A DNA stretch of 47,328 nt from Bacteroidia bacterium (GTDB taxonomy: Bacteria > Bacteroidota > Bacteroidia > Bacteroidales > Azobacteroidaceae). Shown here one piece after another: positions 6,371 through 24,700 of this stretch. Every line of letters starts with the position of its first letter. Position 1 is the first letter of the stretch. The position numbers and the translations under genes are program-made. Below the pieces are notes generated by a model. That model was not told where the DNA came from. It saw nothing but the letters and a program-made list of their open reading frames with translations, and ran no database searches. The stretch spans positions 1 through 47,328 of the forward strand of contig BNWW01000009.1 in NCBI GenBank assembly GCA_025999115.1. The letters run 5' to 3'.

Positions 6371-6371
6371 C

Positions 6372-6782: not shown

Positions 6783-6795
6783 ATTGCTTTGTTTT

Positions 6796-7086: not shown

Positions 7087-7096
7087 AACTTTATGT

Positions 7097-7495: not shown

Positions 7496-7516
7496 AATAT
7501 TTGATATTTAGTATGT

Positions 7517-7702
7517 TTATTTTACTGAAGAATAGGGTTTAAAATGCTCTGGAAAAGCAATCTCCAATTTTGCCTGATTGCCTGTTGAGCCTTTTTTGTA
7601 AGCATCCCTGATAGCTGATTCAAAACTGCCCATAAACTGCTTTCCGTGACCATCTAAATTGAAATAAAAATTATTGTCTTCTTTTATACTCTTTGTTTCC
7701 AT
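7517..7702 (-). CDS. Hypothetical 61-residue protein
   Basis: A short soluble protein (METKSIKEDNNFYFNLDG...) with a helical middle, SFESAIRDAYKKGSTG, and no recognised motif. It starts with an ATG 56 nt after the end of the 39-residue gene and lies 21 nt before the DUF3873-like gene. Position inside the operon and normal codon use support it as a gene; the function is unknown. Confidence 0.6.
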   Translation of the reverse strand: METKSIKEDNNFYFNLDGHGKQFMGSFESAIRDAYKKGSTGNQAKLEIAFPEHFKPYSSVK

Positions 7703-7758
7703 GATTTTTGTTTGTTGTGGGGGCAGGGTGTATGCCTGCCCCCTTGTTTATACTCCTG

Positions 7759-7878
7759 TTATCTGTTCTTTTTGTTAATGTAGGATGCCATTGCCCGGCG
7801 TTCATCGGGCGTCAGGTCGGAAATGTCACAGCAATAGCGGGCATGGGTGTAATTTGATAACTTTTTTGTACTTGCCAT
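7759..7878 (-). CDS. Very small hypothetical protein (39 residues)
   Basis: A complete 40-codon frame: it starts MASTKKLSNYTHARYCCDIS and continues DLTPDERRAMASYINKKNR before TAA. The composition (a Cys pair, then a short amphipathic helix with a DERR motif) is protein-like rather than random. It fills what would otherwise be a gap in a tightly packed leftward operon, 49 nt after the 187-residue gene. Similar tiny proteins with an LTPDERR-type helix occur in Bacteroides elements, but I cannot name this one. Confidence 0.55.
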   Translation of the reverse strand: MASTKKLSNYTHARYCCDISDLTPDERRAMASYINKKNR

Positions 7879-7927
7879 AATTGTAGATGTTAATATATTA
7901 ATAATAAAATAATTGTGATAATGATGT

Positions 7928-8491
7928 TTATTTTCTCTTCATGCTTATTTCCCCCTGCAACCGGTATGAAAATTTTGCGCTGTATATACCAACTTGTTTT
8001 TTGAGTTCTGCCCAAGCCAATTGTTCTTCGTCATATTGTAGCAGGTCATTTTCACAAAGTGCTTTTTGATTTTTAAGATATTCTTTTGCATCCGTGAGCA
8101 TCAGGTCTATGGTTTCCTTTGCATCTATCCGCCTTTGAGAGGGTGTAATTAGCCTGATTTCAATTTTATATTCATCTACATCCCTGCACCCATAAGGGAT
8201 AGTCCTTTCAAAAGTTCTGTTTTGATAATCGCCTATCTGGATTCTCTGACAGTCATTGTATTTGTCATATTCCAAACTGAATGCCAACTTTTTAAGGGTG
8301 TTTTCTTTTTTGATTGCGTTAATCAGTCGGATGTTTGCTACTTTCTTGTCAAATTGGCGAATACATTGCCCGCAAATTTCCAATGCAGCTAATAGATTGG
8401 CATAGACCTCTATTTGTTGATTTGTCTTATTTGTGAAATTTTGTTTCTCTGCCGTTTGTCCGTTGTTCTTTGTTGAAATTGACTTTGTCAT
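7928..8491 (-). CDS. Hypothetical protein, helical
   Basis: I place the start at the ATG at 8491 (MTKSISTKNNGQTAEKQNF). The frame stays open to 8629, but that extension overlaps the upstream membrane-protein gene and has an AT-rich, non-protein-like translation. The 187-residue product is charged and mostly helical, with a long coiled region (ANLLAALEICGQCIRQF; later KEYLKNQKALCENDLLQYDE) and no membrane span. I do not recognise the family. Eleven nt separate it from the gene before it. Probably an element-specific accessory protein. Confidence 0.65.
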   Translation of the reverse strand: MTKSISTKNNGQTAEKQNFTNKTNQQIEVYANLLAALEICGQCIRQFDKKVANIRLINAIKKENTLKKLAFSLEYDKYNDCQRIQIGDYQNRTFERTIPYGCRDVDEYKIEIRLITPSQRRIDAKETIDLMLTDAKEYLKNQKALCENDLLQYDEEQLAWAELKKQVGIYSAKFSYRLQGEISMKRK

Positions 8492-8502
8492 AATGATAAT
8501 TG

Positions 8503-8772
8503 TTAAAATATTAATAATAAAATAATTACTGTAAGTATGATAATTGGAACAAGGGTAAAAACAAGCGACAAAACCAAACCCAAAAGACGTACTGTCAGTT
8601 TCAATAGTTGGTATCCAAGAATTACACACAGTATGGTAGAGAAAGTCGCACCCAGAACCTGTATAAGCCCCACAATCAATGTTATCCCAAGAATGTACAA
8701 ACCAATTTTTATGTAGATTCTCGAAGCGAGGGAGTTTTGTTTCAATATTTTTTCTTTGTTTCTATTTATCAT
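8503..8772 (-). CDS. Small membrane protein
   Basis: Taking the ATG at 8772 (MINRNKEKILKQNSLAS), the product is 89 residues with a short basic head and two or three hydrophobic spans (IYIKIGLYILGITLIVGLIQ, then a long Leu/Ile/Val-rich C-terminal half). An ATG 24 nt upstream would add MTQKKKKV. It is the first gene of the leftward accessory operon that ends with pcfJ. Function unknown. Confidence 0.6.
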   Translation of the reverse strand: MINRNKEKILKQNSLASRIYIKIGLYILGITLIVGLIQVLGATFSTILCVILGYQLLKLTVRLLGLVLSLVFTLVPIIILTVIILLLIF

Positions 8773-8796
8773 GACTTTTTTTTTCTTCTGCGTCAT

Positions 8797-9125
8797 CTGT
8801 CGCGTCGGTCGTTTTTTGTTTCATCGGCGATTCAGGTGTAGGGTTTAGGTCTGTCAAGTTTTTTGACAATAAAATACGCTCGCCCGAAGTATGAGGGAAA
8901 GAGGAAGATTTTTTGCAAAACCCGAAGGGCTTGAACTTTACTGACCGTTAAAAACCCGTAAACACCTTTGCCGAATGACAACAAAAATGACCGATGATGA
9001 CGCCCTTAGATGACAAAAGCAAAGAGGAATGATAATAAAGAGAAACAAAAAAAGAAAAAATATATTATTCTTTTTAAAAAAGATGTTATCGCTTGAACAA
9101 GAGCGATTAACAGCGGACGCAAAAA
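8797..9125. other. Non-coding stretch upstream of the accessory operon
   Basis: No credible reading frame on either strand. It is A-rich in its right half. TGTCAA (8852-8857) and TTGACA (8863-8868) form a 6-bp inverted repeat about 80 nt upstream of the membrane-protein start, a possible operator. No clear TAnnTTTG promoter is visible. The region between the transfer and integration modules is where a transfer origin is often found, but I see no recognisable nic site. Confidence 0.4.
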
Positions 9126-9183
9126 GAAAGTATGCGAAAACATTGCCTGTTATTTACGGCAGGTAATGTTTTCGCATTCTTTC
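9126..9183. repeat. Long imperfect hairpin (24-bp arms)
   Basis: The left arm 9126-9149 and right arm 9160-9183 pair over 24 positions with one mismatch and one G-U, around a 10-nt loop. The core GCGAAAACATT occurs on the left and AATGTTTTCGC on the right. The GC-rich flanks GCGG and CCCGC could extend the structure. No T-tract follows on either side, so it is not an ordinary terminator. It could be a protein-binding or transfer-related site, a small palindromic insertion or a stable RNA hairpin. Confidence 0.7.
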
Positions 9184-9270
9184 GCGCCCGCTCCCGAAGA
9201 ACTCTTTCCGTTATTAAGCCGGAACGGATGGTACGGTAGTGCGGTGTATAACGGAATGTGTCCATAGGGT

Positions 9271-9305
9271 AAAAAGCCCTGAATAACGGTTGTCATCAGG
9301 GCTTT
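9271..9305 (-). terminator. Intrinsic terminator of the RhuM-like gene
   Basis: A 10-bp perfect stem, AAAGCCCTGA (9273-9282) with TCAGGGCTTT (9296-9305), and a 13-nt loop. On the minus strand the right side ends in CTTTTTACC, giving a U-run. It starts 3 nt after the stop codon. Confidence 0.85.
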
Positions 9306-9308
9306 CAA

Positions 9309-9668
9309 TTAATTGAGTGATAGCATAAAAGGCGGTTTACAAAATGCTTTCATAAGCCATTCCCTAAAAGCTCGCGATTCAAAAGACGGTATCCGGTAAC
9401 TGATGTAAATTATAACATCCATATTGTATAAAGTCGTTTCACAGATACGTCCCTTATGTTCAAACTGTTGAATACGGGCAACATCTTTTTCGCAGAGTAT
9501 TCCGGTTTGAAAGATTGCCCGGATATTGTTTTCGACCGTCTGCTCATAGGTGTTGAACAAATCCGCCATCTGGCAAGTTGAGAGCCATAAGTTGCCGTTT
9601 ACCAATTTCACATTGACAACAAACTGCTGCTTGTCGTTTTCTTTGATTTTTATATTTCCTGTTTCCAT
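9309..9668 (-). CDS. RhuM-like protein (short form)
   Basis: The 119-residue product resembles the N-terminal part of the RhuM/virulence-protein family: VNVKLVNGNLWLSTCQMADLF resembles the usual leader into a helix-turn-helix, followed by VENNIRAIFQTGILCEKDVA, and YNMDVIIYISYRI as the usual YNLDxIIxVGYR-like motif. Full-length RhuM proteins are around 300 residues; short forms like this are frequent beside integrases of Bacteroidota conjugative elements. The C-terminus (FREWLMKAFCKPPFMLSLN) departs from the family after the FREWL motif, so it may be a truncated gene. Its role is unknown; DNA binding is plausible. It lies just downstream of the integrase. Confidence 0.75.
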   Translation of the reverse strand: METGNIKIKENDKQQFVVNVKLVNGNLWLSTCQMADLFNTYEQTVENNIRAIFQTGILCEKDVARIQQFEHKGRICETTLYNMDVIIYISYRIPSFESRAFREWLMKAFCKPPFMLSLN

Positions 9669-9692
9669 AATGCTTTTTTAATGACTTAATTT

Positions 9693-10922
9693 TCAATTAC
9701 TTTCATACATGTTTTCAATCCCATTCAATTTCCCTGCCAATTTATTCATATCATTACTGATTTTATTGTCGGTAATACGGGCATAAATTTGTGTCGTTTG
9801 AAGTTTCGTATGGCCCAACATTTTGCTAACCGTTTCAATTGGAACACCTTTTGATAGGGTGGTAGTGGTAGCGAAGGTATGACGTGCAAGGTGAGTTGTG
9901 AGGTTTTTATCTATTTCGCACAAAGTTCCAATCTCTTTCAGATAAGCATTCATCTTTTGGTTACTCATTGTAGGTAGCAATGCTTCTTTCGGCAATTTTC
10001 CTTTATATTTTTCAAGTATCATAAGAGGTACTTTTAATAAGGGCACGGTAACTTTAACATTGGTTTTGTGCCGTTTAGTCATTATCCAAAGATTGTCGTC
10101 GAAAGAAGTACGAATATTTTCTTTGGAAAGACCCATTACATCAACAAAAGCTAAGCCTGTGAAACAGCAGAAGATAAATATATCCTTGACGTGTTCCAAC
10201 CTTTCAATAGAAAAACTTTTTTGCATTAGCTTTTGTAATTCTTCATCGGATAAATAACCCCTGTCCACTTTCTTAAATGTGATTTTATAGTTATGGAAAG
10301 GGTCTGCCGTTATCCAACCGTTATTCTTTGCCGTCAGAATAATGGTTCTGAAATATTGCATGAATTTGGCTGTTGTGTTCTCTCCACAACCACAATCAGA
10401 ACGCAGGTAGTTTTCAAAATTTGTAACGAACTGATAATTAATTTCCCGCAGAGCAATATCCTTGATATTGCAACGGGCTTGCATGAAACTTTCCAACCGG
10501 CGATAGGCGCGGTCGTATTTTTCAATGGTAGTTTTAGATTTGCTAATACCTTCTAATCTTTTCAAATTTACATTGTATTGAGCGAAAACGCCCAATAAGG
10601 TTTCTTCTCTCGTCTTTATTCCCAAGAAGGCATTACGAATTTTTTCAGGAGAAACCATTACATCTTCTTTTTCTATTGCCCGGTAATGGTTCATCAATGA
10701 AGACCGTAAATTTTCCAGCAAAGCATTTAACCTTGCAGCCTCCATGCTTTTACCGGCAGCTTTGCTACCTTTCGTATCCCAAAGTTCCGGCTCAATCTCT
10801 AATTTGGAGCTGAATTGGCACAGTTCGCCATTCAAAGTGATTCGAATCATAATACCCGCTTTACCGGTTTTGCTTACGTAGTTTTTCCTTACGTAAAAAA
10901 GGATTTTAAATGTACTGCTCAT
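9693..10922 (-). CDS. int: Tyrosine recombinase / integrase of the conjugative element
   Basis: The 409-residue product has an N-terminal arm-binding-type domain (about 1-90), a SAM-like core-binding domain (about 110-205: YDRAYRRLESFM, FENYLRS) and a catalytic domain (about 220-400). Catalytic residues visible: H344 and R347 in THLARHTFAT, H371 in LGHTKLQTTQ and the nucleophile Y380 in QIYARI; Lys lies in TKRHKT (281-287). The first Arg of the family is replaced: the motif is TGLAFVD with Ala at 258. Loss of this Arg is also known in IntDOT of CTnDOT, so the enzyme need not be inactive. It faces away from the tRNA-Asp gene, and an array of TGTAACG motifs lies between them, as expected for an element inserted at a tRNA 3' end. 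Confidence 0.93.
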   Translation of the reverse strand: MSSTFKILFYVRKNYVSKTGKAGIMIRITLNGELCQFSSKLEIEPELWDTKGSKAAGKSMEAARLNALLENLRSSLMNHYRAIEKEDVMVSPEKIRNAFLGIKTREETLLGVFAQYNVNLKRLEGISKSKTTIEKYDRAYRRLESFMQARCNIKDIALREINYQFVTNFENYLRSDCGCGENTTAKFMQYFRTIILTAKNNGWITADPFHNYKITFKKVDRGYLSDEELQKLMQKSFSIERLEHVKDIFIFCCFTGLAFVDVMGLSKENIRTSFDDNLWIMTKRHKTNVKVTVPLLKVPLMILEKYKGKLPKEALLPTMSNQKMNAYLKEIGTLCEIDKNLTTHLARHTFATTTTLSKGVPIETVSKMLGHTKLQTTQIYARITDNKISNDMNKLAGKLNGIENMYESN

Positions 10923-10972
10923 AACATGAATTGTTTTTTATACCTTGCGTCTGCATTGGTCAAAAAAGTTTC

Positions 10973-11243
10973 TGTAACGATTTTTGTAACGATTTACGGC
11001 TTCTGTAACGTTTCTGTAACGATTTCTAAAATTCACTGTAATGGCTGACTGTGAATTGCAACAAGCTGTAAATAACCCTGCTAAATCTACAACAACTCTT
11101 TGTAACGATTTACATCTGCAAAGGTAAAGTTTATAAATAGTTTATGAGCTACTTGGACGTGGACAATGTGAGACAATTCAAGGACTTATGAAGGAAATCG
11201 TTACAGAAATTAATCTGATTTTCCTGTAACGAATTTGTAACGC
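10973..11243. repeat. Array of TGTAACG motifs, probable integrase/excision binding sites
   Basis: The motif TGTAACG, often followed by ATTT, occurs at 10973, 10985, 11004, 11015, 11101, 11225 and 11236 on the plus strand and once inverted at 11195-11205 (AAATCGTTACA). One further copy lies past the tRNA gene at 11522. Clusters of short repeats next to an integrase gene and an attachment site are typical of arm-type sites for the integrase or excisionase. The first copies lie just upstream of the integrase start and may also regulate it. The segment 10923-11368 holds no gene. Confidence 0.65.
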
Positions 11244-11300
11244 AACTCTGTCCTTTTTTGGCTTTTTAATGACTTTTACGTGTCCGTTGAGAGGAATAAA

Positions 11301-11332
11301 AAATCCCGTAAAACCTTGATTTTACGGGATTT
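11301..11332 (-). terminator. Intrinsic terminator of tRNA-Asp
   Basis: A perfect 13-bp stem, AAATCCCGTAAAA (11301-11313) with its complement at 11320-11332, and a 6-nt loop. On the minus strand it is followed by TTTATTCC. It lies 36 nt past the tRNA 3' end and would also stop readthrough into the element. Confidence 0.85.
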
Positions 11333-11368
11333 GTCTGCGTTTGTCCTTCTTGTGTCTGAAGGCTTCTG

Positions 11369-11442
11369 CGGTATGGACGGGACTCGAACCCGCGACCCCC
11401 TGCGTGACAGGCAGGTATTCTAACCAGCTGAACTACCACACC
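11369..11442 (-). tRNA. tRNA-Asp (anticodon GTC)
   Basis: A complete 74-nt cloverleaf on the minus strand: acceptor GGTGTGG pairs with CCATACC (one G-U), discriminator G, D-arm with AGCTGGTTAGA, anticodon stem CCTGC/GCAGG around CTGTCAC (anticodon GTC, bases 11408-11406), and T-loop GGTTCGAGTCC. CCA is not encoded. Its 3' end faces the integrase and the motif array, so it is the likely integration target; the integration has left the gene whole. Confidence 0.96.
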
Positions 11443-11700: not shown

Positions 11701-14151
11701 ATGAAATTCGGTTTTTTCGACGATCAACAACGTGAATATGTCATTACTAATCCGCAAACGCCATGGCCGTGGATTAATTACCTGGGGAATGAAGATTTTT
11801 TCTCCTTAATCTCCAATACGGCAGGAGGTTACTCCTTTTTTAAAGATGCTAAATTTCGCCGCATCACACGCTATCGCTACAATAGTGTCCCGATGGACAA
11901 CGGCGGCCGCTATTTCTATATCAACGACAACGGAACGGTTTGGTCGCCGGGATGGAAGCCTTGCAAAACGCCGCTCGATAAATATGAATGTCGCCACGGA
12001 ATGAACTACACCCGTATTACCGGCGCTAAAAACGGTATCGAAGCCGAAGTCTTGTTTTTCGTACCGCTGAAAACGTGGGCGGAAGTGCAAAAAGTGAAAC
12101 TAACCAATCAAACCGCTGAAACCAAGCGATTTAAATTGTTTTCTTTCACCGAATGGTGCCTCTGGAACGCCGCCGCCGATATGGAAAACTTCCAACGAAA
12201 TTTCTCAACCGGCGAAGTCGAAATCGAAAATTCGGTCATTTACCACAAAACGGAATACAAGGAACGCCGCAACCACTACGCTTATTACAGCGTGAATGCG
12301 CCGGTTCAAGGCTTCGACACCGACCGCGAATCGTTCATCGGTTTATACAACGAATTTCGCGACCCACAGAATGTAATCGCCGGAAAACCAAGTAATTCCG
12401 TCGCTCACGGCTGGTCGCCCATTGCCTCGCATTACCTCGAAATCGAATTGAAGCCGAATGAAACGCGCGAATTAGTCTTCCTTTTGGGCTATTGCGAATA
12501 CGAAAATTCTGCGGAAAAATTTGAATCCAAAGGAGTTATCAATAAAAAACAAGCGAAGGAAACGATTGCCAAATTCGATACGCCGGAAAAAGTAAACCGC
12601 GCCTTCGACGAACTGAAACAGTATTGGGACGATTTATTAAACCGCTATGTATTAACAAGTAACGACGAAAAATTAGACCGCATGGTCAATATCTGGAATC
12701 AATACCAATGTATGATTACCTTCAACTTTTCACGTTCGGCCTCATTTTTCGAGTCAGGCATCGGCCGCGGCATGGGTTTCCGCGATTCCAATCAGGATTT
12801 GGTGGGCTTTGTACATCAAATTCCATCGCGCGCAAGACAACGCATCATCGACATTGCCTCCACGCAATTCCCCGACGGCGGCTGCTATCATCAATATCAA
12901 CCGCTGACGAAACGCGGCAATAACGACATCGGCGGAGGCTTCAACGACGACCCTATGTGGTTGATTTTCGGAACGGTAGCTTATCTGAAAGAAACCGGCG
13001 ATTTCTCCATTTTGGACGAAGCGATTCCTTTCGACAATGAAAAAGGTTCGGAACAATCGTTGTTTCACCATTTGACCGTATCTTTCAACCACGTAATCAA
13101 CAATTTAGGCCCGCATTTGTTGCCCTTAGCCGGCCGCGCCGACTGGAACGACTGCCTCAACCTGAATTGCTTTTCATGGAATCCCGACGAATCATTCCAA
13201 ACGACTGAAAATCAAACGGAAGGCTCAAAAGCCGAATCGCTGATGATTGCCGGTTTATTCATCGTTTGCGGACAAGATTATGTGGATTTATGCCGTCAAA
13301 CCGGGAAAAACGCCGAAGCCGGCCGCGCCCAAAAATACGTGGATGCCATGGTCGAAGCCGTCAAACAACACGGTTGGGATGGCGATTGGTTCCTCCGCGC
13401 CTACGATTTTTACGGCAATAAAATCGGCAGCAAAGACAACGCCGAAGGCAAAATTTTCATTGAATCACAAGGATGGTGCGCCATGGCAAAAGTGGGTCTT
13501 TCCGATGGAATGCTCAAACAAGCGCTCGATTCGGTTAAAACGTATTTGGATACACCGCACGGCATTGTCTTAAACAATCCCGCTTTTTCGGAATACGTGG
13601 TCGAATACGGCGAAATATCCACTTATCCGGCCGGATACAAGGAAAACGCAGGTATCTTCTGCCACAACAACCCGTGGATTATCATTGCCGAAACCATTTT
13701 AGGCAGAGGCGATTACGCATGGGATTACTACCGGAAAATCTGCCCGTCCTACACCGAAGAGGTATCCGATTTGCACAAAACGGAACCTTACGTTTATTCG
13801 CAAATGATTGCCGGAAAAGATGCGTTCCGTCCGGGAGAGGCCAAAAATTCGTGGCTCACAGGCACCGCCGCTTGGAATTATTATGCCATCACACAATATA
13901 TTTTGGGCATCCAACCGACTTACGAAGGCTTGAAGATTGACCCGTGCATTCCTGCCGCTTGGCCGGGCTTCAGCGTAAAACGGGAATTTCGTGGGGCGAC
14001 GTATCATATCGAAATCAAAAATCACGGCGGACAAAAAAGAGTTAAACAATTGATTGTGAACGGACAAGCGATTGAAGGAAATGTAATTCCTTTGCTGGCG
14101 GAAGGGTCGGTTAATCAAGTGGAAGTGGTTTTGTTACAAGATATTAAATAG
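11701..14151 (+). CDS. Cellobiose phosphorylase (GH94)
   Basis: The 816-residue protein splits cellobiose with phosphate into glucose 1-phosphate and glucose (EC 2.4.1.20), saving ATP in the use of cellulose breakdown products. The whole length follows the family: N-terminal beta-sandwich ([29 protein letters not shown]), then an (alpha/alpha)6 barrel with [55 protein letters not shown] and the [10 protein letters not shown] motif (Asp481/Asp484, the region of the general acid), and late [13 protein letters not shown] and [14 protein letters not shown] motifs. There is no signal peptide, so it is cytoplasmic and would act on imported cellobiose. The exact match to cellobiose-type motifs makes chitobiose or cellodextrin phosphorylase less likely. 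It has its own promoter and no obvious operon partner; a GH3 glucosidase lies 11 kb away. Confidence 0.94.
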
Positions 14152-14188
14152 TTTTTATGGTCATATTAAATAAACTCTTGTTAAAAAA

Positions 14189-14220
14189 TTTGCAAATTTA
14201 AAAACTATTTCGTTTCTTTG
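14189..14220 (+). promoter_or_regulatory. Promoter for the sigma factor / rpe / comEC gene group
   Basis: TTTG (14189-14192), a 20-nt spacer and TTTCTTTG (14213-14220, one mismatch to TAnnTTTG). The start codon of the sigma-factor gene is 89 nt downstream. The intergenic segment 14152-14308 shows no gene. Confidence 0.5.
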
Positions 14221-14308
14221 TCCCCGAAACAAAAATCAAATTGTTAAATTTTAAAAAATATTGCCTATTGAACTTGTCATTACGCTTTAAACATTAATAC
14301 AAAAAGTA

Positions 14309-14902
14309 ATGATTCAATTGAAAAAAATGACCGATGAAGAATTGGTTACGGCTTATGCCCAAGGCAATAATGAAGCTTTTGATATTCTCCTTAACCGGCA
14401 CAAAAGCGGCGTTTATTCCTATATTTATTTCATTGTTCGCAACCGGGAAATGACGGAAGACATTTTCCAAGATACTTTTGTGAAAGCGATTACAACCATC
14501 AAACAAGGTCGCTACACCGAGAACGGTAAATTCCGCGCTTGGATTAATCGCATCGCCCATAATCTGATTATCGATTATTACCGTCAGGAAAAGAACGAAC
14601 AAACCATCTCCAACGACGACTGCGAAGTGGACTTGCTTAACAACGCCAAATTAGCCGACGGCACTATCGAAGATGCCATGATAAAAGATCAAATCCTCTC
14701 GGATGTAAAAAAACTCATCAATTATCTGCCCGATAATCAAAAAGAAGTGCTTTTGTTGCGCTATTATCAGGATTTAAGTTTCAAGGAAATAGCTGATATT
14801 ACGGGAGTCAGCATCAATACGGCTTTGGGTCGGATGCGTTACGCCATCCTCAATATGCGCCGGATGGCCGAAGAAAAAAACATGATTCTGACTATGGATT
14901 AA
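14309..14902 (+). CDS. ECF-type RNA polymerase sigma factor
   Basis: The 197-residue protein has region 2 (AFDILLNRHKSGVYSYIYFI, MTEDIFQDTFVKAITTI, then FRAWINRIAHNLIIDYYR) and region 4 (LPDNQKEVLLLRYYQDLSFK followed by EIADITGVSINTALGRMRYA, the helix-turn-helix that reads the -35 element). An acidic linker joins them. No anti-sigma gene is adjacent, unlike the FecI/FecR-type pairs common in Bacteroidota, so it may be of the stand-alone class. The next frame, a 57-codon gene, follows 78 nt downstream and rpe after that. Target genes cannot be deduced. Confidence 0.93.
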   Translation: MIQLKKMTDEELVTAYAQGNNEAFDILLNRHKSGVYSYIYFIVRNREMTEDIFQDTFVKAITTIKQGRYTENGKFRAWINRIAHNLIIDYYRQEKNEQTISNDDCEVDLLNNAKLADGTIEDAMIKDQILSDVKKLINYLPDNQKEVLLLRYYQDLSFKEIADITGVSINTALGRMRYAILNMRRMAEEKNMILTMD

Positions 14903-14980
14903 TTTTTCCGAACCGGCGATACAATATATCGGTTCATCTTCCGTTTTTCATACATAGCAAAAATTAAATTCGATTTGCCT

Positions 14981-15154
14981 ATGTATAAAAGATTTACACA
15001 AGATGATGATTGTTATCCGGTCATGAAAGAGAAAACTTCCCTTTTAAATTTGAATCCTCATCCCGCCACCATAGCGTTTTTATTGCAATTCGCTTGCGCC
15101 TTTCATGTTGAAAAAGACTTGCCGGCCGGCATGTCGGGTTTTATGTTGAATTAA
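14981..15154 (+). CDS. Small hypothetical protein (57 residues)
   Basis: A complete frame starting MYKRFTQDDDCYPVMKEKTS, with a central LNPHPATIAFLLQFACAFHV segment and ending in TAA 12 nt before the rpe start. The NPxPATIxFLxxFA pattern resembles small proteins found after ECF sigma genes in other Bacteroidales, from memory only. It lacks a signal peptide. It could be an anti-sigma-like partner or simply a conserved small protein; neither is shown here. The position inside the operon supports it as real. Confidence 0.6.
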   Translation: MYKRFTQDDDCYPVMKEKTSLLNLNPHPATIAFLLQFACAFHVEKDLPAGMSGFMLN

Positions 15155-15166
15155 AAAAAACAATTG

Positions 15167-15820
15167 ATGATGTTGTTGGCGCCTTCCTTGTTATCAGCCG
15201 ATTTTCTGCATCTCGACCAAGAGATTGCTATGATCAATCAAAGTGAAGCCGATTGGCTGCATTTGGATGTGATGGACGGTGTGTTTGTCCCGAATATCTC
15301 GTTGGGATTTCCGTTGATTGCGCAATTGTCGAAACAAATCCGCAAACCGATGGACGCGCATTTGATGATTGTGGAGCCACAAAAATTTATTCCACAATTC
15401 CGCGATTTCGGCGTGCATATTCTGACTGTGCATTATGAAGTTTGTATGCATCTGCACCGGGTGATCAGGCAAATTAAAGAAGCCGGAATGAAAGCGGGCG
15501 TAGCGCTCAATCCGCATACACAGGTAGAAACACTGACCGATATTTTACCCGATTTGGATATGGTATTGATTATGTCGGTCAATCCCGGTTTCGGGGGACA
15601 AAGTTTTATCCCTCAATCACTTAACAAAGTAGCGCGTTTGCGGAAGATGATTGAAGACGACAAATTGGAAACATTGATAGAAGTCGATGGCGGCATCAAT
15701 TTCGATACAAGCTTGTCGATGATGGAAGCGGGCGCCGATGTATTGGTTGCCGGAAACTACATTTTTAAATCACAAAATCCATTGGAAACAATTTCTAAAA
15801 TGAAAAAAATGAAAGTCTAA
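15167..15820 (+). CDS. rpe: Ribulose-phosphate 3-epimerase
   Basis: This 217-residue TIM-barrel enzyme interconverts ribulose 5-phosphate and xylulose 5-phosphate in the pentose phosphate pathway. Family signatures are all present: LLAPSLLSADF at the N-terminus, DWLHLDVMDGVFVPNIS with metal-binding His and Asp, DAHLMI, VLIMSVNPGFGGQSF, EVDGGIN and the phosphate-binding GADVLVAGNYIF near the C-terminus. I start it at the ATG at 15167; a second ATG follows directly and a TTG precedes it. It lies 12 nt after the small gene and 41 nt before comEC, as one likely transcription unit. Confidence 0.96.
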   Translation: MMLLAPSLLSADFLHLDQEIAMINQSEADWLHLDVMDGVFVPNISLGFPLIAQLSKQIRKPMDAHLMIVEPQKFIPQFRDFGVHILTVHYEVCMHLHRVIRQIKEAGMKAGVALNPHTQVETLTDILPDLDMVLIMSVNPGFGGQSFIPQSLNKVARLRKMIEDDKLETLIEVDGGINFDTSLSMMEAGADVLVAGNYIFKSQNPLETISKMKKMKV

Positions 15821-15861
15821 ATTAAAAACAGCTATTTAGTTAAGACATAATCATTTAAGCT

Positions 15862-17406
15862 ATGAAACAGTTGCATCAAATACCTTTTATGAGGTTGGTC
15901 GTATTTGTTATTTCAGGTATTGTAATTCAATCGCAAAAACCTTGTTCTTCGGGATTGTTGATCGTTTTGTTAGGGCTTGCATTCCTGTTTTTTATTGGGG
16001 CATATCTTCCAAAATTCAAGAAAAATTATCCGTTCCGATTTTTATTCGGCATGGGATTGGCGTTGTTGCTATTTGTGGTAGCGGCATTTCTCACTCGTTT
16101 GGCTTGGCAGGAGTCGGAATGGCCGGGCGATGCAAAAACGCATTTTTACAAGGCGCAAATTATCGACGAACCAGAGCGTAAACCCAAAACGTGGCGTTGC
16201 GATTTGCAAATCCGGTCGGCCAACAGCAGCGTTTTTTCATCTGTAAAAAACAAAAAAATCCGGTTGTACATCCCGGTAGATGCTCGTTCCGAAACACTTC
16301 GAGCGGGCGATTGCTTGGCATTCTCCGGCAGTTTAAAGGTGGCGGAAAAATACTTGCATAAACAATCGTTGGCAGCTACGGGATTTATTCGTGCCGGCGA
16401 TTGGCAATTGATTTCCGAACCCCAAGCGCCGTTTTCGATTCGGATAAAAGCTTTGTCGGTTCGCAGACAATTATTGTCCCAATTGCACCAAATCATTCCC
16501 GACAAAGATTCTTTTGCTTTGGCAGAGGCTTTGGTATTCGGTTATCGGAATGATTTAGACGAAGAACTGCAGCAATCGTTCCGGAACATCGGTGCGGCGC
16601 ATATTTTAGCAATCAGCGGCACGCATTTTGCCATCGTGTTCGGAATCGGCTATGGATTATTGGCATTTTTGGGCAATTATCCGCGCAGTAAACGACTGAA
16701 ACAAGCCATTTTATTGCCTTTAATGTGGGTTTTCGCCTTTTTGACCGGATTTTCGCCTTCGGTAGTACGCTCGGTTTTGATGCTTTCGGTGTGGGGCATT
16801 GGCGAAGCATTGGGACGTCGCGCTTTAACACTCAACACGGTAGTTGCAACAGGATTCATCATGTTGGTTTTCAATCCTTTGTATCTATTCGATGTCGGAT
16901 TTCAATTAAGTTTTGCGGCAGTCATTTCTATTTTGCTTCTCAATCCGTATTTTCTCCGCTTATATCAATCCAAAAATTTGATAATCAAATATATATGGAA
17001 TTTATCGTGTGTATCGGTTTCTGCGCAAATCGGTGTATTGCCGCTGTCGATTTATTATTTTCATCAATTTCCGGTTTTCTTTTTGCTGACCAATGTATTG
17101 TTGTTGCCTTTGGTTTCCGCAATTCTGTTTTTGGTTCCATTTTCAATGTTAATCAATTATATTTTAGGAAATTACAATTGGATAATGTGGCCGGTGCAAC
17201 AAAGTTTAGCGGCTTTTATATCCATCGCCCGACGGCTTGACAATTTACCTTACGGTTCGATTCAAAACTTGGATTGGAGTTTGATGAATACGGGAGCAGC
17301 CTTGGGTATCACCCTTTTATTAGCATTATTATTTATTCGAAAACGCATGATTTATGCTTGTTTGTTGCTCGTATTATTAGGTACATGGATGGTCTTTGCT
17401 GCTTAG
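15862..17406 (+). CDS. comEC: ComEC/Rec2-type competence protein, apparently shortened
   Basis: This 514-residue multispan membrane protein has the DUF4131-like N-terminal region and the Competence domain with its hallmark SFRNIGAAHILAISGTHFAI (about residues 235-255), then TGFSPSVVRSVLMLSVWGIG and many hydrophobic helices. ComEC forms the channel for single-stranded DNA uptake. Related Bacteroidota proteins known to me run on for 150 or more residues after the last helix, but this frame stops directly after it (LLVLLGTWMVFAA). The stop overlaps the stop of a convergent transposase-nuclease remnant, so the 3' end was probably replaced. The membrane channel part is complete, but full function is uncertain. 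It follows rpe on the same strand. Confidence 0.87.
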   Translation: MKQLHQIPFMRLVVFVISGIVIQSQKPCSSGLLIVLLGLAFLFFIGAYLPKFKKNYPFRFLFGMGLALLLFVVAAFLTRLAWQESEWPGDAKTHFYKAQIIDEPERKPKTWRCDLQIRSANSSVFSSVKNKKIRLYIPVDARSETLRAGDCLAFSGSLKVAEKYLHKQSLAATGFIRAGDWQLISEPQAPFSIRIKALSVRRQLLSQLHQIIPDKDSFALAEALVFGYRNDLDEELQQSFRNIGAAHILAISGTHFAIVFGIGYGLLAFLGNYPRSKRLKQAILLPLMWVFAFLTGFSPSVVRSVLMLSVWGIGEALGRRALTLNTVVATGFIMLVFNPLYLFDVGFQLSFAAVISILLLNPYFLRLYQSKNLIIKYIWNLSCVSVSAQIGVLPLSIYYFHQFPVFFLLTNVLLLPLVSAILFLVPFSMLINYILGNYNWIMWPVQQSLAAFISIARRLDNLPYGSIQNLDWSLMNTGAALGITLLLALLFIRKRMIYACLLLVLLGTWMVFAA

Positions 17407-17600
17407 ACACGCACATCCGCATATTCCAATACACTTTTACGATATGTTTTCATTTCTTTATTTGTTAATTGTTTCACTTCTGCCGTTTCAAATAATTTGT
17501 CGAATATTTTACCTTGAATTTCCGGCGGTCGAATTTCCATATTCGCCAAATGTTTCATGCAGTACAACAATCGTTTAATGTATTTAAAGTCATAGTGTAA
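17403..17600 (-). pseudogene. C-terminal remnant of a PD-(D/E)XK nuclease family transposase
   Basis: On the minus strand a frame open from about 17600 to the TAA at 17405-17403 reads KRLLYCMKHLANMEIRPPE, then IFDKLFETAEVKQLTNKEM and YRKSVLEYADVRV. This is the recognisable C-terminal region of the Rpn/PDDEXK_2 transposase-nuclease family common in Bacteroides (about 250-300 residues when complete). The N-terminal nuclease part is missing and a different, AT-rich frame takes over upstream. Its stop overlaps the comEC stop, suggesting that its insertion or a later deletion cut comEC short. Confidence 0.7.
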
Positions 17601-17715
17601 ATAATAATGGCGCAGAGATAGGGGATATTTTTAAAAATTTTACCAAAAACGATAAAAAATCCTTGATAATTCAATATTTGGCACAATATTTGCATGACTT
17701 CATCATCATAATGAC

Positions 17716-17723
17716 TATTTTTG
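17716..17723 (+). promoter_or_regulatory. Possible promoter -7 box of the DGR target gene
   Basis: TATTTTTG matches TAnnTTTG. A TTTG lies 23 nt upstream, slightly far for a -33 box. The start codon is about 240 nt downstream, leaving a long AT-rich leader. The rest of the 360-base gap 17601-17960 shows no gene and no clear RNA structure. Confidence 0.35.
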
Positions 17724-17960
17724 CAAAATAATAAGCAAGTAAAGGTACACACATTTTGTTGAAAGTGTTATCATAATGAAGAAAGAAATTTTAGACAAAC
17801 ATATTTTCCTAAACAGGAATGACCAAGGATTCGGCGCTTATTTTTAATACTTTCTTAAACCGAAGTGGATGTTGTGAAACATTTACTTATTTTTTGTCAT
17901 CCTGTTTTTTAAATTAAAAACTAAAAGTTTATTATAAACAACAATTAATTTTTTTAGAGT

Positions 17961-19403
17961 ATGAAAAAGAAAAGTTTTCAGTTAATGATGTTCCTGCTTA
18001 TTGCAGGTTTAATGAGTGTAAATGCACAGGTGCGCATCGGCGGTTCCTCTGAACCCAGTCCTGATGCAATTTTGGATTTGAACCCCGACGGGAGTGTGCC
18101 TGCAACAAAAGGTTTGTCTTTGCCAAGAGTGGAATTACAAAGCGAAGTAGCACCCGACCCGCTTTCCGCTCATGTTAAAGGAATGATGGTGTATAACCTG
18201 ACAACTACCGGCGGTTTGAATGAAGGCATTTATGTGAATACCGGCGCCGGTTGGCAATTGCTCTCTAACGGTACCATTGCTCCGGGCGAACCGATTGTGT
18301 TTCTACGTAATCCCGGTTTTGCTTGGTTAGGTCTTAACGGGAATGCAACCGATACTTTGTTTATTGAAGTGGCAAACCCAAGTGAGAACATACTTTCCTA
18401 CCAATGGTATCAAAAGTTTACCGATGGAAGTTCTACACCGGTAGCAGGAGCTATCAAAGACACGCTTTTTGTTGAGAAAGGAAAGTATGGGATTCCGGCC
18501 AATCCGGGAGCAACTTCCGAGACTTACCAATATTATTGTGTGGTTATTGACGGAATCCATGCACAATATGGAATTAGCGGAACAGGACGTGTAGCTGCCG
18601 GCGTTGGCGCCCGACTTTCCGGCGGAAAATGGTTGCGCTTCATGTCCTTTAACTTGGGAGCGGATGAAAATATGACACTCGACCAGCAAATAGCCTACCA
18701 ACTGAAAGCGGCGAACGCCGGAGCCGCCAATGATAAAAATTACGACCCAACAGTTTACGGCGACTGGTATCAATGGGGACGAAAAAAAGATGGACATCAA
18801 GACCGGACGGTGCCGGCTTCGGGAACTTATATCCAATTGTTGAAAGCGCCAAACGGCGCAGGTACCGACAGTTTAGATACCAAAGGACAAATTAAAACCG
18901 CTCACCCCACCCTGCTTACTCAATTTATTCAACGCGATGGTGGTTCGACTTTCGATTGGCGGCAATATAACGAAACAGCAGACAATTCGATTACTGCTCC
19001 TAAAAATGAGTGGACTTGGGGAAGCCCGATAAATGGCGTTACTACGCTTGATCCTTGCAGAAGTGAATATGGCGCACCTTGGCGCGTACCCACCCAAAGC
19101 GAATGGGCGCAAATTGTAAGTAATAATAGTTGGGTGTGGGTCGATGGCGGAACGAATGGAATTTCAGGCTATCGCGTACAGCCGGGCGGTCAAAATAAGC
19201 CGGCCACGATTTTCTTGCCTGCCGCCGGCCTCCGCAGCCGTAGTACGGGAGCAATGTTCAGTGTCGGAGCCGCCGGCCTCTATTGGAGTAGCTCGCCTAC
19301 GGGTACTGATTCGTTCGGCTTGCACTTTAATAGCGGTAGCATTAGTGGCGCCAACACGTACAGTCGCTCGAGCGGGTTCACTGTTCGCTGTGTCGCAGAA
19401 TAA
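17961..19403 (+). CDS. Secreted FISUMP-domain protein, target of a diversity-generating retroelement
   Basis: The 480-residue protein has a signal peptide (MKKKSFQLMMFLLIAGLMSV, cleavage probably after NAQ). A beta-rich N-terminal part with the ILDLNPDGS...KGLSLPRVEL motif is followed by an Ig-like region (about 110-210). A FISUMP/C-type-lectin-like domain comes last (WLRFMSFNLGAD, YGDWYQWGRKKDG, YGAPWRVPTQSEW, then YWSSSPTGT). The last 65 residues (about 416-480) are the variable repeat of a DGR: 15 codons differ from the template, all by change of template adenines (residues 424, 426, 428, 433, 434, 438, 440, 450, 453, 455, 462, 467, 468, 471, 473). Such targets are surface or secreted ligand-binding proteins; the ligand here is unknown. 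There is no lipobox and no C-terminal sorting domain. Confidence 0.92.
   Translation: MKKKSFQLMMFLLIAGLMSVNAQVRIGGSSEPSPDAILDLNPDGSVPATKGLSLPRVELQSEVAPDPLSAHVKGMMVYNLTTTGGLNEGIYVNTGAGWQLLSNGTIAPGEPIVFLRNPGFAWLGLNGNATDTLFIEVANPSENILSYQWYQKFTDGSSTPVAGAIKDTLFVEKGKYGIPANPGATSETYQYYCVVIDGIHAQYGISGTGRVAAGVGARLSGGKWLRFMSFNLGADENMTLDQQIAYQLKAANAGAANDKNYDPTVYGDWYQWGRKKDGHQDRTVPASGTYIQLLKAPNGAGTDSLDTKGQIKTAHPTLLTQFIQRDGGSTFDWRQYNETADNSITAPKNEWTWGSPINGVTTLDPCRSEYGAPWRVPTQSEWAQIVSNNSWVWVDGGTNGISGYRVQPGGQNKPATIFLPAAGLRSRSTGAMFSVGAAGLYWSSSPTGTDSFGLHFNSGSISGANTYSRSSGFTVRCVAE
19207..19400 (+). repeat. DGR variable repeat (VR)
   Basis: The 194 bp align without gaps to the template repeat 365 bp downstream. 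I count 20 differences, all where the template has adenine: for example AAC becomes CTC, AGC, TTC, GCC, GGC, CAC or TAC, and AAT becomes AGT or GAT. No template C, G or T is altered. All 15 changed codons change the residue. The final 24 bp up to the stop (ACTGTTCGCTGTGTCGCAGA plus its surroundings) are identical and would serve as the 3' homology for initiation. The stop codon TAA follows directly. Confidence 0.95.
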
Positions 19404-19466
19404 ATTCGATTGATTTGTCTTTTTGACTATTTAAAAAAAATTAGATTTTTATGGGTATTTTAGAAA

Positions 19467-19518
19467 AAATCGTTCATTATTAACGATTTGGCAGGGGATG
19501 GCGGGTCAAGCCCGCCAT
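19467..19518. repeat. Two hairpins between VR and TR, one a dispersed-repeat-like palindrome
   Basis: AAATCGTT (19467-19474) pairs with AACGATTT (19482-19489). ATGGCGGG (19498-19505) pairs with CCCGCCAT (19511-19518) around TCAAG. The first could end the target-gene transcript or, lying 66 nt past VR, resemble the DNA hairpins found after the VR in some DGRs. The second looks like a short repetitive palindrome of the kind scattered in many genomes. Confidence 0.6.
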
Positions 19519-19571
19519 GACAATACCCTCCGGTAAAGCATGAAAAAAATCAGTGTTTACTTTTTATAAAG

Positions 19572-19765
19572 CGATTTTCTTGCCTGCCGCCGGCAACCGC
19601 AACCGTAATACGGGAGCAATGAACAATGTCGGAGCCAACGGCAACTATTGGAGTAGCTCGCCTACGGGTACTAATTCGTTCAACTTGAACTTTAATAGCG
19701 GTAGCATTAATGGCGCCAACACGAACAATCGCTCGAACGGGTTAACTGTTCGCTGTGTCGCAGAA
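19572..19765 (+). repeat. DGR template repeat (TR)
   Basis: This 194-bp sequence is the unaltered copy of VR. At the variable positions it has AAC or AAT (14 codons, Asn if read) and one TTA. The clustering of AAY codons maximises the range of residues reachable by adenine mutagenesis: the usual design of a TR. It lies between the target gene and the reverse-transcriptase remnant, the standard order. It happens to be open in frame, giving an Asn-rich 84-residue translation, but it has no plausible translation start and should be regarded as template RNA, not a gene. Confidence 0.94.
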
Positions 19766-19788
19766 CTTAACATCGAGACTTGGGTCGG

Positions 19789-20025
19789 ATGGATCAGTTG
19801 TTATTAGATTTGTTTCAGGCATATTATGATGCTCGTAAGCATAAACGAAACACATGGGAGCATTGCCGGCTGAAACTGCATCCGAACAAGATTTATTTGC
19901 AGCATTACCGGAAAGGATTTACTTTTTTGGGAGCGTACATCTTGCCGCACAGGATATATATCGGCAACCGGACGAAAAAGAAATTTATTGAGATGATTGG
20001 GCAGACGAAGCAATTCAAAAGAATT
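19789..20025 (+). pseudogene. DGR reverse transcriptase, internally deleted remnant
   Basis: Starting at the ATG 23 nt after TR, the frame begins MDQLLLDLFQAYYDARKHKRNT, the typical beginning of a DGR reverse transcriptase in Bacteroidota. It then jumps at WEHC directly to the C-terminal thumb-side region (LKLHPNKIYLQHYRKGFTFL, later LPHRIYIGNRTKKKF). Everything between is gone, including the fingers, palm and the YxDD catalytic box. Roughly 75 recognisable residues remain of a protein usually above 350. The junction keeps the reading frame, and no stop occurs before ettA, so a fused product is formally possible. Enzyme activity is excluded. Confidence 0.87.
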
Positions 20026-20033
20026 TTTATTGA

Positions 20034-20067
20034 TTTGTGTGTAATTGGGAAATTTCATGTAAATTTG
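20034..20067 (+). promoter_or_regulatory. Promoter of ettA
   Basis: TTTG (20034-20037) and TAAATTTG (20060-20067) are separated by 22 nt. They lie just past the reverse-transcriptase remnant and 18 nt before the ettA ATG, showing that ettA has its own promoter and does not need the upstream frame. Confidence 0.6.
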
Positions 20068-20085
20068 CGCCTCAATTCAAAAATT

Positions 20086-21774
20086 ATGGCAGACGATAAA
20101 AAAATTATTTTTTCGATGGTAGGCGTTACTAAAACGTTTCCTCCTCAAAAACAAGTGCTTAAAAATATTTATCTTTCGTTTTATTACGGCGCGAAAATCG
20201 GAATTATCGGTTTGAACGGTTCCGGAAAATCGACTTTACTGAAAATTATTGCCGGCGTGGAAAAGGAGTTTCAGGGCGATGTGGTGTTTTCGCCCGGATA
20301 TTCGGTCGGCTATCTTGAACAGGAACCAAAATTGGACGATACGAAAACCGTAAAGGAAATCGTTCAAGAAGGCGTTCAGGACATTATGGACACGCTGAAA
20401 GAATACGAAGCCATCAACGAAAAATTCGGTCTGCCGGAATATTACGAAGATGCGGACAAAATGGACCAATTATTTGCCCGCCAAGCGGAATTGCAGGATA
20501 AAATCGATGCGACCGATGCGTGGAATATCGACTCGAAACTCGAACGGGCGATGGATGCTTTGCGCTGTCCGCCCGAAGATCAGATTGTAGGCACTTTGTC
20601 GGGAGGAGAACGCCGCCGAACCGCTTTGTGCCGCTTATTGTTGAAACAACCCGACATTCTTTTACTCGACGAACCGACCAACCATCTGGATGCCGAATCG
20701 ATCGATTGGCTCGAACAACACCTCCAACAATACGCCGGAACTGTGATTTGCATCACGCACGACCGCTATTTTTTAGACCATGTGGCTGGTTGGATTTTGG
20801 AACTCGACCGAGGCGAAGGCATTCCTTGGAAAGGCAATTATACTTCGTGGCTCGAACAAAAAACCACCCGCATGGCGCAAGAAGAAAAGCAGGCCAGCAA
20901 ACGCCGCAAGACTTTGGAACGCGAATTGGAATGGTCGCGGATGGCGCCGAAAGCCCGTCAGGCCAAAGGGAAAGCGCGTTTAAATTCCTACGAACAATTA
21001 TTGAATCAAGATACGAAAGAGCGCGAAGAAAAACTCGAAATATTTATTCCCAACGGCCCTCGTTTAGGGAACAAAGTAATCGAAGCGATTGATGTAGCTA
21101 AATCGTTCGGTGATAAATTGTTATACGATAAATTGAATTTTATGCTTCCACCGAACGGCATTGTAGGCATTATCGGGCCGAACGGTGCGGGAAAAACCAC
21201 GCTTTTCCGCTTGATTATGGGCTTGGATACACCCGACAAAGGTACGTTTGATGTGGGAGAAACGGTACAAATCGGTTATGTCGATCAATCGCATACCAAC
21301 ATTGATCCGAACAAATCGGTCTTTGAAGTGGTTTCCGGCGGAACGGAATTTATCCGCGTGGGTGGAAAAGAAGTCAATTCGCGCGCTTATTTGGGACGTT
21401 TCAATTTTACCGGAGCCGATCAGGAAAAGAAATGCGGCGTACTTTCCGGCGGCGAGCGCAACCGGTTGCATTTGGCATTAACGTTGAAATCGGAAGCCAA
21501 TGTTTTGTTGCTCGACGAACCGACAAACGACATCGACGTCAATACCTTACGTGCAATGGAAGAAGGTTTGGAGAATTTTGCCGGTTGCGCCGTGGTTATT
21601 TCGCACGACCGGTGGTTTTTAGACCGGATTTGTACGCACATCCTTGCTTTTGAAGGGGATTCGGAAGTGTTTTTCTTTGAAGGGAGTTATTCGGAATATG
21701 AAGAGAATAAGAAACAGCGCTTGGGGAATGTGGAACCGAAACGAGTTAGGTATAGGAAGTTGATGGCGGATTGA
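20086..21774 (+). CDS. ettA: Energy-dependent translational throttle protein EttA (ABC-F)
   Basis: The protein from the ATG at 20086 is 562 residues (MADDKKIIFSMVGVTKTFPP), the usual EttA length; the frame is open further upstream through the retroelement remnant, but that part is not EttA. It has two ATP-binding cassettes: Walker A GLNGSGKST, signature LSGGERRRTALC, Walker B ILLLDEPTNHLDAES, a linker with the conserved ELEWSRMAPKARQAKGKARL, then Walker A GPNGAGKTT, LSGGERNRLHLA and LLLDEPTNDIDV, and a late EPKRVRYRKL tail. EttA binds the ribosomal E site and gates the first peptide bond according to energy state. It has no membrane spans. It is convergent with the helicase-nuclease gene (17 nt between stops). 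Confidence 0.95.
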   Translation: MADDKKIIFSMVGVTKTFPPQKQVLKNIYLSFYYGAKIGIIGLNGSGKSTLLKIIAGVEKEFQGDVVFSPGYSVGYLEQEPKLDDTKTVKEIVQEGVQDIMDTLKEYEAINEKFGLPEYYEDADKMDQLFARQAELQDKIDATDAWNIDSKLERAMDALRCPPEDQIVGTLSGGERRRTALCRLLLKQPDILLLDEPTNHLDAESIDWLEQHLQQYAGTVICITHDRYFLDHVAGWILELDRGEGIPWKGNYTSWLEQKTTRMAQEEKQASKRRKTLERELEWSRMAPKARQAKGKARLNSYEQLLNQDTKEREEKLEIFIPNGPRLGNKVIEAIDVAKSFGDKLLYDKLNFMLPPNGIVGIIGPNGAGKTTLFRLIMGLDTPDKGTFDVGETVQIGYVDQSHTNIDPNKSVFEVVSGGTEFIRVGGKEVNSRAYLGRFNFTGADQEKKCGVLSGGERNRLHLALTLKSEANVLLLDEPTNDIDVNTLRAMEEGLENFAGCAVVISHDRWFLDRICTHILAFEGDSEVFFFEGSYSEYEENKKQRLGNVEPKRVRYRKLMAD

Positions 21775-21791
21775 TTTTGCAAGTATTCTTA

Positions 21792-24700
21792 TCAATTGGC
21801 GGATTCAACCCTTCTTTCCTCCACATACCACAAATACCCTTCTACCTGCGGATAATGCATGCTTTCGAGCAAATCCATGTATTGCCGCACTTGCTTTTGG
21901 TGGTTTTTGTGCGCTTGGCCGAATTTATAATCGATAATCAGGGTTTTATCGTCCGACAATAAAACGCGGTCGGGACGTTTGCTCACGACTTCACCGTTTT
22001 CTTCCATAATAATCGAATGTTCCTGATAACTTTTGTAAGTTCCATCAAACCAATCATTTACATTTGATTCTTCGATGGCTTCCCGGATTTTTCCGACATA
22101 ATTTTCTTTTTCTTGCGGTTGAATCAATCCTTGCACAATGAGGTTGTCAATGGCTTTTTCGATGGCATCAAAATGGGAAATTTGTTCGAAAAGCGCGTGC
22201 ATGATGTTGCCGTATGCTACATATTTTTCTTTTTTTCCGGATTCTCCGCTAACAAATTCGCGCGATTGGTTCGATTGTTTGAAAATGGATTTTCCGGCTT
22301 GAAATTCGTTGGAAATAAAATGGGCGGCTTTGATTTGCGGGTTCTGTTTCAATGGGTTATCTTGATTTTTTTGACCGACGGCTGAAGCCGACGGCAATAA
22401 ATGGCCGATCTCGAAATGGTGGGTGTCTTCATCATTATTTTCTTTTAAATCGGAAAAGGATAATTGGAGGAGACCGGAGGCGGTGGAAATTTTATCTTCC
22501 GATAAATTCTTTTTGAATGTTCCGATAATCAACAGATTGCGTTCAGCGCGGGTAAATGCCACGTATAATAAATTGAGCGTATCCATCCACGATTGAACGG
22601 TTTCTTCCATGTATTCAGGTGCAAAAACGGTGTTGGCCATGCTTGAAACGTAATTGACCGGCAACAAGGCTACATCGTACAAGCCCTCTTTGGCGCCGCA
22701 CCACAAAGCCGGTGCAAACTGCGGATTGATTTTCCAATCGCAATACGGCACAATGACGGTCGAAAATTGCAAGCCTTTCGATTTATGCACCGTCATAGCG
22801 CGGATGCCGGTTGCGTTGGCGCCGGTGGGAATGGTGCGGATTTGCAATTCGTCGTCCCAATATTGTAGAAATTGGGGCAAATCGGCCGGTTTTTCGTTTA
22901 AATATTGCTTTAAGGCATCGTAAAAGGCGAAAAGATAGGCCGATTGGCCTTCGATTTTTTCTAATTTTAGATGACGGTATAGATAGCCAATTAGTTCAAA
23001 CAGAGGCATTTTATTTAAATGGAGAATCAAGAATCGAGAATCGAGAATCGAGAATGGGGATAGTAGGGAGTTTAATTGGGTTTGGCTGATGGCATTTTCC
23101 GGGTCGACAACAATTTTCAACGCTTCGATCAGGATTTTTATGGCGGGCGACGATTTCAATTGGAAGGCTTCGTCGGAAAGAATATCCAAATAATGTTGCG
23201 CGGCCATCTCCGGAAAATCGTTTTTCAGCGAAGCCAAATAATCGGCTAAGGCAATGATTTCGTTGTTCTTACGTGTTAAAATACAAATCTCCCGAACCGG
23301 AATTTGATGTGCATACAATTCTTGGATTTTTTGGAAAACCGCTTGTTTCATCGCATCGGCCGAAGTCATTTCTTCGCTATCGTTTTCGATAAAATCGATG
23401 GAAACAAAACCGCTTTCTTCCTGTTTATGAGCGTGTTGCACCAAATTTTTGGCGCTGTAAGCCGAAAGGAAAGGCGAATCCGATGTTGTATTTAATTTAT
23501 TGATATACAATTGATTGAGCTTTTCTGCGGCGGAAAGGAAAAAGGCGTTGTTAAATTCGACAATGCGTTTATGGCTTCGGAAATTGGTATCCAAATGTTC
23601 GATTTTGGCCGGTAATTCCTGTTCGATCCGGTTCAAAATACGCCAATCGCCGTTGCGCCAACGATAAATCGCTTGTTTCACGTCGCCCACAATCAAACTG
23701 AAATGATTATCCGCTATAATGTTGGATAACAGGGATTTAAAGTTTTGCCATTGCAAGCGTGAAGTATCCTGAAACTCATCAATCATGACGTGTTGGATGT
23801 CTGCACCGATCTTTTCGTAGATAAAAGGAGCATCCGAACCGTCAATCATTTCGTTCAGAAAACGGGCGGTATCGGAAAGCATAAACCGGTTATTTTCAGC
23901 ATTTTGCAATTCAATTTCTTTGGTAATATCCCAAACCAGACCCAATTGATGCAGGTTTTCGGTAATCAGTTGCGAAGTGAGCATCCGGATTTGCATTTGC
24001 AAAGTCTCCTGTAAAAGGGGAATCAGGTCGTTTTCGGCCAAATTTTGGATATCCATCCGTCGGGCATGTGATTTGGTTGTCCAAGCAGTTGCATCGGAAG
24101 CGCAATTCAAAATCGTTGCGCTTACATTCGCTGAAAAATCGCCCGCCGCCAATTTTTGGAAAAATGCGATGGGAAGGCCTTTACGAATAAAATCATCGGC
24201 CGACAATTGGTGTGCATCCAAGAGCGATTGTATTTTCAGTAATATATTGACAAAGAACGTTTTACATTCTATTTTAATTTGATTTTGTTGTTGTTTCAAA
24301 TCGCGAAACAAGTGGGGATTGGCTTCGATCTGACGGCGCAAAACCAACTCATTTTCCTGAAAAAATTCGTTGTAAATGCAACGGCTGAATTGGAAAATTT
24401 CCTGTTCGATGCGCCAATTATGCGCCTCATCCATGCGGTGTTCGATGTAGGTAGTCAGCCATTCCAAAATTTGCTTGTTTTGATTGGCTTTTTCGATCGT
24501 GGCATGAACGGCCTCGCTCAACACTTTTTCGGTATTCATTTCGAGGCCGAATTTGGAACCGGCGCCCAATTCCCGCGCCAGATTTCGTAATACTTTTTGG
24601 AAAAAACTGTCAATGGTTGTAATATTCAACCGGCTGTAATCGTGTAAGACAGCATTCAGGACAAAACCTGCTTTTTCACGAATCCGTTTTTCGTCCCAAT

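Follow-up and report, generated by a model that had tools for sequence, protein, structure and literature searches.

A degenerate diversity-generating retroelement retains an adenine-only repeat pair beside a reverse transcriptase stub in a Bacteroidales genome

The stretch of Bacteroidia DNA analysed here (the window, 47,328 nucleotides) contains a locus that is a diversity-generating retroelement (DGR) in origin, and a degenerate rather than a working system. We consider it probable that this DGR has decayed, leaving a repeat pair that differs at adenines only and a reverse transcriptase (RT) stub without its catalytic core, and that the predicted lectin-like tip of the target protein, likely written by the DGR, is now likely frozen. 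The variable repeat (VR) and template repeat (TR) are kept, with the RT and other machinery broken or missing. The adenine-only pair and the position of the VR at the 3′ end of its target are those of an autonomous DGR; the intact RT, the Avd gene (in 14001–24000) and the hairpin of such a system are absent. The features of the locus are as follows.

15862–17406, plus strand: comEC, left flank of the insertion (PF03772); it adjoins ettA in genome G033
17961–19403, plus strand: target gene, 480 aa; an ORF with sub-threshold matches to PF07603 and TIGR02145, and with fold matches
19207–19400, plus strand: VR, forming the final 194 bases of the target gene ahead of its stop codon
19404–19450, plus strand: post-VR stretch, in which the GACTATTTA motif of the related locus L001 is kept and the L001 hairpin is not
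19451–19483, plus strand: putative accessory ORF stub of 10 codons plus a stop, similar to the start of L001 1638–2078
19500–19522, plus strand: palindrome within the deletion scar, of which the first 22 bases recur as a dispersed repeat in relatives
19530–19560, plus strand: pre-TR element, which also precedes the TRs of G001:C72 and G001:C21 and the solitary TR of G048:C373
19572–19765, plus strand: TR, in gap-free alignment with the VR
19789–19854, plus strand: RT codons 1–22, by alignment to full-length RT relatives
19855–20007, plus strand: RT thumb piece (P0002 residues about 271–321), by the same alignment
20086–21774, plus strand: ettA, right flank (TIGR03719, E 1.7e-280)

By pairwise alignment, the VR and TR span 194 columns with 0 gaps and 20 mismatches. 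All 20 fall on template adenines, which make up 52 of the 194 TR sites (hypergeometric p 1.5e-13 for 20 random sites all landing on TR adenines), while none of the 142 non-adenine sites differs (95% upper bound 2.1%). The mismatches change 15 codons, all 15 non-synonymously, with 8, 11 and 1 at codon positions 1, 2 and 3, respectively; 14 of the 16 AAC/AAT (AAY) codons of the TR are changed in the VR. The VR ends at the last sense codon of its ORF, and a BLAST search with the TR found the VR and TR as the sole full-length copies in the whole window. Judged from these sequence features, the two repeats are the VR/TR pair of an Avd-type DGR. The initial annotation had reported a gap-free 194-bp pair with 20 substitutions, each at a template adenine, in 15 codons that all change the residue, with identical non-adenine positions; our rerun of the alignment returned exactly these numbers, and the differences at template C, G or T that it had named as contrary evidence are nowhere in the 194 columns. 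Its further claim, that a DGR diversified this receptor, holds as far as the Avd-type VR/TR pair is concerned and overlooked the loss of the engine, the RT being a stub.

The target protein has a signal-like N-terminus, as judged by eye, and an Ig-like domain predicted by fold matches at residues 110–214. As fold searches with the whole target gave Ig domains, its C-terminal part was folded separately. The predicted fold of this domain, which ends in the VR, matches the C-type-lectin type, with Mtd of phage BPP-1 among the matches. Compared by sequence with solved structures, the target profile returned only two weak matches, to beta-galactosidases. The target has 200 relatives (120 listed), and the alignments took in 36 and 43 rows, the window's own included.

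The RT frame starts 23 bases after the TR with MDQLLLDLFQAYYDARKHKRNT, the start of a DGR-type RT, onto which WEHCRLKLHPNKIYLQHYRKGFTFLGAYI, part of the thumb, is joined straight. Relative to nine full-length relatives, the stub lacks about 248 core residues (P0002 about 23–270), among them the GLPIGNLTSQ and YVDD stretches (GxxxSQ and YxDD motifs), as well as about 70 residues at the C-terminus. These nine were drawn from 190 RT relatives (120 listed), themselves recovered from 192 candidates at E 0.001 in a region-limited protein search; among the matches listed, identity reaches 87% over the matched half of the stub. Five RT queries found no second RT in the whole window. The stub (P0001) has no match in Pfam or NCBIfam at E 1, and its best match in PHROGs is a reverse transcriptase family (E 0.0083; second match E 0.36). 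Five phage records match it with at most 62% identity over 33–46% of its length, and relatives occur on 4 of 9 candidate viral contigs. We set aside a phage origin for the window's copy, whose flanks are comEC and ettA. In the thumb, dN is 0.089 between the window and L001 and 0.090 between the window and L160, against 0.029 between L001 and L160; dS against the window is saturated. The stub is in frame with ettA, in an ORF at 19780–21774 that forms a 664-codon open frame.

What an undamaged relative looks like can be seen in L001 (G001:C72), from Bacteroidia bacterium PG1894_40, where target, accessory ORF, Avd, TR and RT follow one another. Its Avd matches PF22296 (bAvd) above the cut-off and NF033474 below it, and its VR/TR pair differs at 10 sites, all adenines. 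Common to L001 and the window are a related target (52% identity), the TR, the pre-TR element and the RT start and thumb, which are the two RT pieces kept in the window together with about 10 accessory codons. In L001 the accessory ORF, Avd and RT are all full and a 12-bp hairpin follows the VR; not one of these is complete in the window. The accessory ORF, 146 aa in L001, is conserved at about 146–179 residues between target and Avd; in L001 and its relatives it has no Pfam or NCBIfam match. It has 13 matches in 8 of the 45 family genomes (11 near complete), and is also present in 8 of the first 49 loci.

Searches of window positions 14001–24000 by tblastn gave no match for the L001 Avd at E 0.001 and none for the accessory ORF, the 10-codon stub (blastn E 5e-4 against L001 in a two-sequence search) being the sole piece seen. 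The first 22 bases of the palindrome in the scar have 47 exact copies in 10 of the 45 genomes, against 0 for the reversed control. No strong hairpin follows the window VR: the best stem within 80 bases is 6 bp of A/T, with a score reached by 31.6% of random 80-mers. Among other family pairs, the post-VR stem is at least 5 bp in 11/11 and at least 8 bp in 10/11, and the score of the weakest of these ten is reached by 3.9% of random 80-mers. A strong hairpin is also missing from L159, a remote target in G001, and from 18 of 20 dispersed targets in G023, while 5 of 11 targets in G034 have one of 11–13 bp. The hairpin argument is weakened by these targets, and also because the BPP-1 hairpin, described as needed for efficient homing (PMC3240598), is reported to raise efficiency without being strictly required (PMC12875486). 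We reject hairpin loss as proof that a DGR is dead, since remote targets lack a strong hairpin too.

The cassette lies between two genes that are neighbours in G033. Among the 45 genomes of G001's family, the highest comEC identity is to G033 (77%), whose ettA matches at 97% over residues 1–396, where the contig ends. In G033 no DGR separates comEC and ettA, and 2,686 bp of the window (17367–20052) correspond to 59 bp there; neither the RT nor the TR with its flanks has a match in the G033 genome. From this adjacency, which is a comparison with one genome, the cassette would have been either gained in the window's line or lost in that of G033. On the minus strand between comEC and the target, positions 17403–17560 are a remnant similar to the terminal part of a PD-(D/E)XK family transposase (PF12784, E 4e-4, below the cut-off).

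We propose that an L001-type cassette (target, accessory ORF, Avd, TR and RT) settled between comEC and ettA. There its Avd–RT complex would have made cDNA from the TR, introducing errors at adenines, and this cDNA would have replaced the VR. Separate deletions, known from one assembly, would then have taken Avd and most of the accessory ORF, the core of the RT, and its C-terminus. These losses would be so recent that every non-adenine site of the pair is still unchanged.

Loss of this kind is not confined to the window. The family has 14 near-complete Avd loci. At 10 of them the adjacent RT is near full length and free of stops; the other 4 (G001:C34, G012:C415, G016:C144 and G015:C77) have no such neighbour, a proportion that indicates, on present sequences, that DGR decay is common in the family. 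At G012:C415 the RT is in three pieces with stops (15/18 differences of the pair at adenines), and at G016:C144 the contig continues for 928 bp past the TR without an RT (12/13). At G015:C77 an Avd with a stop is followed by a C-terminal RT fragment. G001:C34 (L161/L214, minus strand, L161 3678–3038) is an RT-less cassette in which Avd is followed by an RT thumb fragment; its VR/TR pair has 26 of 27 differences at adenines. A solitary TR on G048:C373 (L187 478–672) has a window-type pre-TR element, with 477 bp of contig before it and a hairpin and housekeeping-type genes after it; neither RT nor Avd was found on this contig. At G034:C127, codons 1–36 of the accessory ORF follow the target and the RT match is weak (E 0.026). 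Further DGR fragments are present at G023:C415 and G031:C103.

Non-adenine differences are as rare in pairs beside broken or missing RTs (5/541 sites at 4 loci, the window's included) as in pairs beside near-full-length RTs (8/960 sites at 8 loci; Fisher p 1.0), in a count that left out G027:C170 and G027:C96 (intact RT) and G027:C114 (one stop), all with no usable VR/TR pair, as well as RTs ended by contig ends; the G001:C32 pair spans 86 bases only. A clean pair thus does not tell a dead system from a live one, and a VR/TR pair that differs at adenines only cannot be taken as proof that a DGR works.

Dispersed targets of the same type also occur in the family. In G023, 20 paralogs (L128–L146), and in G034, 11 (L147–L157), vary in their last 194 bases mostly at template-adenine sites. 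When columns with A in both the window TR and the L001 TR were compared with columns with A in neither, mean entropy was 1.13 vs 0.34 in G023 (20 paralogs, p 2.5e-12) and 1.30 vs 0.56 in G034 (11 paralogs, p 1.7e-12). Neither an RT or Avd nor an accessory ORF or a further VR/TR copy was found in the stretches retrieved around these paralogs, and many of the contigs end inside the target. In an alignment of 16 of the 20 G023 targets, column identity is 0.86 at VR sites with a non-adenine template and 0.84 upstream, which is hardly different and so does not demonstrate repeated homing from one TR. In G001, 19 of the 20 sites that distinguish the remote target L159 from the L001 TR are adenines; for the remote target L163 and the G001:C21 TR the figure is 21 of 28.

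These observations bear on how the window's pair has stayed clean. Since 0 of 142 non-adenine sites differ, either the machinery was lost recently or an RT acts in trans; the same figure is what a working pair would be expected to show, and counts against decay. The locus could be a non-autonomous DGR: a second DGR in the cell would provide RT and Avd, and the TR and VR would remain in use. Retention of the pre-TR element, the TR and the beginning of the RT gene when the protein parts are gone would fit such use, as would G001, where the adenine pattern of L159 against the L001 TR and the presence of four near-full-length DGR RTs in the same genome as the RT-less G001:C34 make use in trans plausible from the sequences; PMC10907252 argues for activity in trans at degenerate loci. 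However, L159 may instead have been copied after diversification, the G023 targets are hardly more alike at non-adenine VR sites than upstream, and G033, the closest relative, has no match to RT or TR. We favour recent decay and place supply in trans second because of this absence of an RT in G033 and because the window VR lacks a strong hairpin, and we regard the non-autonomous reading as unlikely. We give still less credence to a broader proposal, that a TR–VR unit without protein genes is a minimal form which other DGRs in its cell still rewrite with their RT and Avd, and that such units recur in this Bacteroidales family and are missed by surveys that start from the RT.

We rate two further explanations lower still. 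The real genome could have an intact RT and Avd here that short-read assembly skipped, as DGR repeats do break assemblies and many G023 and G034 contigs end inside target genes; such an artefact would nevertheless need several separate gaps, one of them a scar with a dispersed palindrome, and similar stubs are present in other family genomes, which makes it very improbable. A partial duplication of the gene end by ordinary means, with later drift or selection and no DGR involved, would account for two near-identical copies 365 bp apart, but not for differences that all (20 of 20) fall on a single base of one copy, next to an RT-derived ORF. We reject it on the adenine pattern and see next to no chance that it is correct. 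Decay of a once complete DGR is the reading we retain.

Published accounts already describe DGRs in which the RT is dead and the pair clean, as well as degenerate loci for which service in trans is argued (PMC3521204, PMC10907252). The DiGReF survey (PMC3521204) describes inactivated RTs beside adenine-only VR/TR pairs, which its authors infer were inactivated “very recently”. The window resembles these cases in having a dead RT beside a pair with adenine changes only; the RTs described there carry stop codons, frameshifts or insertion elements, whereas the window has deletions that include Avd and most of the accessory ORF. For Thiohalocapsa PB-PSB1, degenerate loci with missing or pseudogenized machinery are described, some argued to be diversified in trans (PMC10907252), from a whole genome and population reads, in contrast to the one contig of the window. 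The window shares its VR/TR logic with the BPP-1 DGR (Mtd, Avd, bRT; PMC3240598, PMC12875486), which is described as active with an RT, Avd and a post-VR hairpin, all three missing here. Remote DGR targets have been described in cyanobacteria (PMC7517822). By title or the start of the abstract, we found no literature on RT-less DGRs of this family. If decayed as we propose, the locus clearly illustrates how a hypermutation system can collapse and yet leave its last product, a single receptor variant, in place. The family presents several stages, namely complete cassettes, an RT-less cassette, a solitary TR, and genomes with 20 or 11 adenine-diversified paralogs and no TR in the stretches retrieved around them, and this set makes the survival of RT-less DGRs in trans directly testable with reads.

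Elsewhere in the window are conjugative-transposon-type genes for TraM (187–1461), DUF4138 (1509–2438) and PcfJ (5099–6370), a tyrosine integrase (9693–10922) and a tRNA-Asp (11368–11442). Positions 187–11442 are probably one end of an integrated element, with the DGR outside it.
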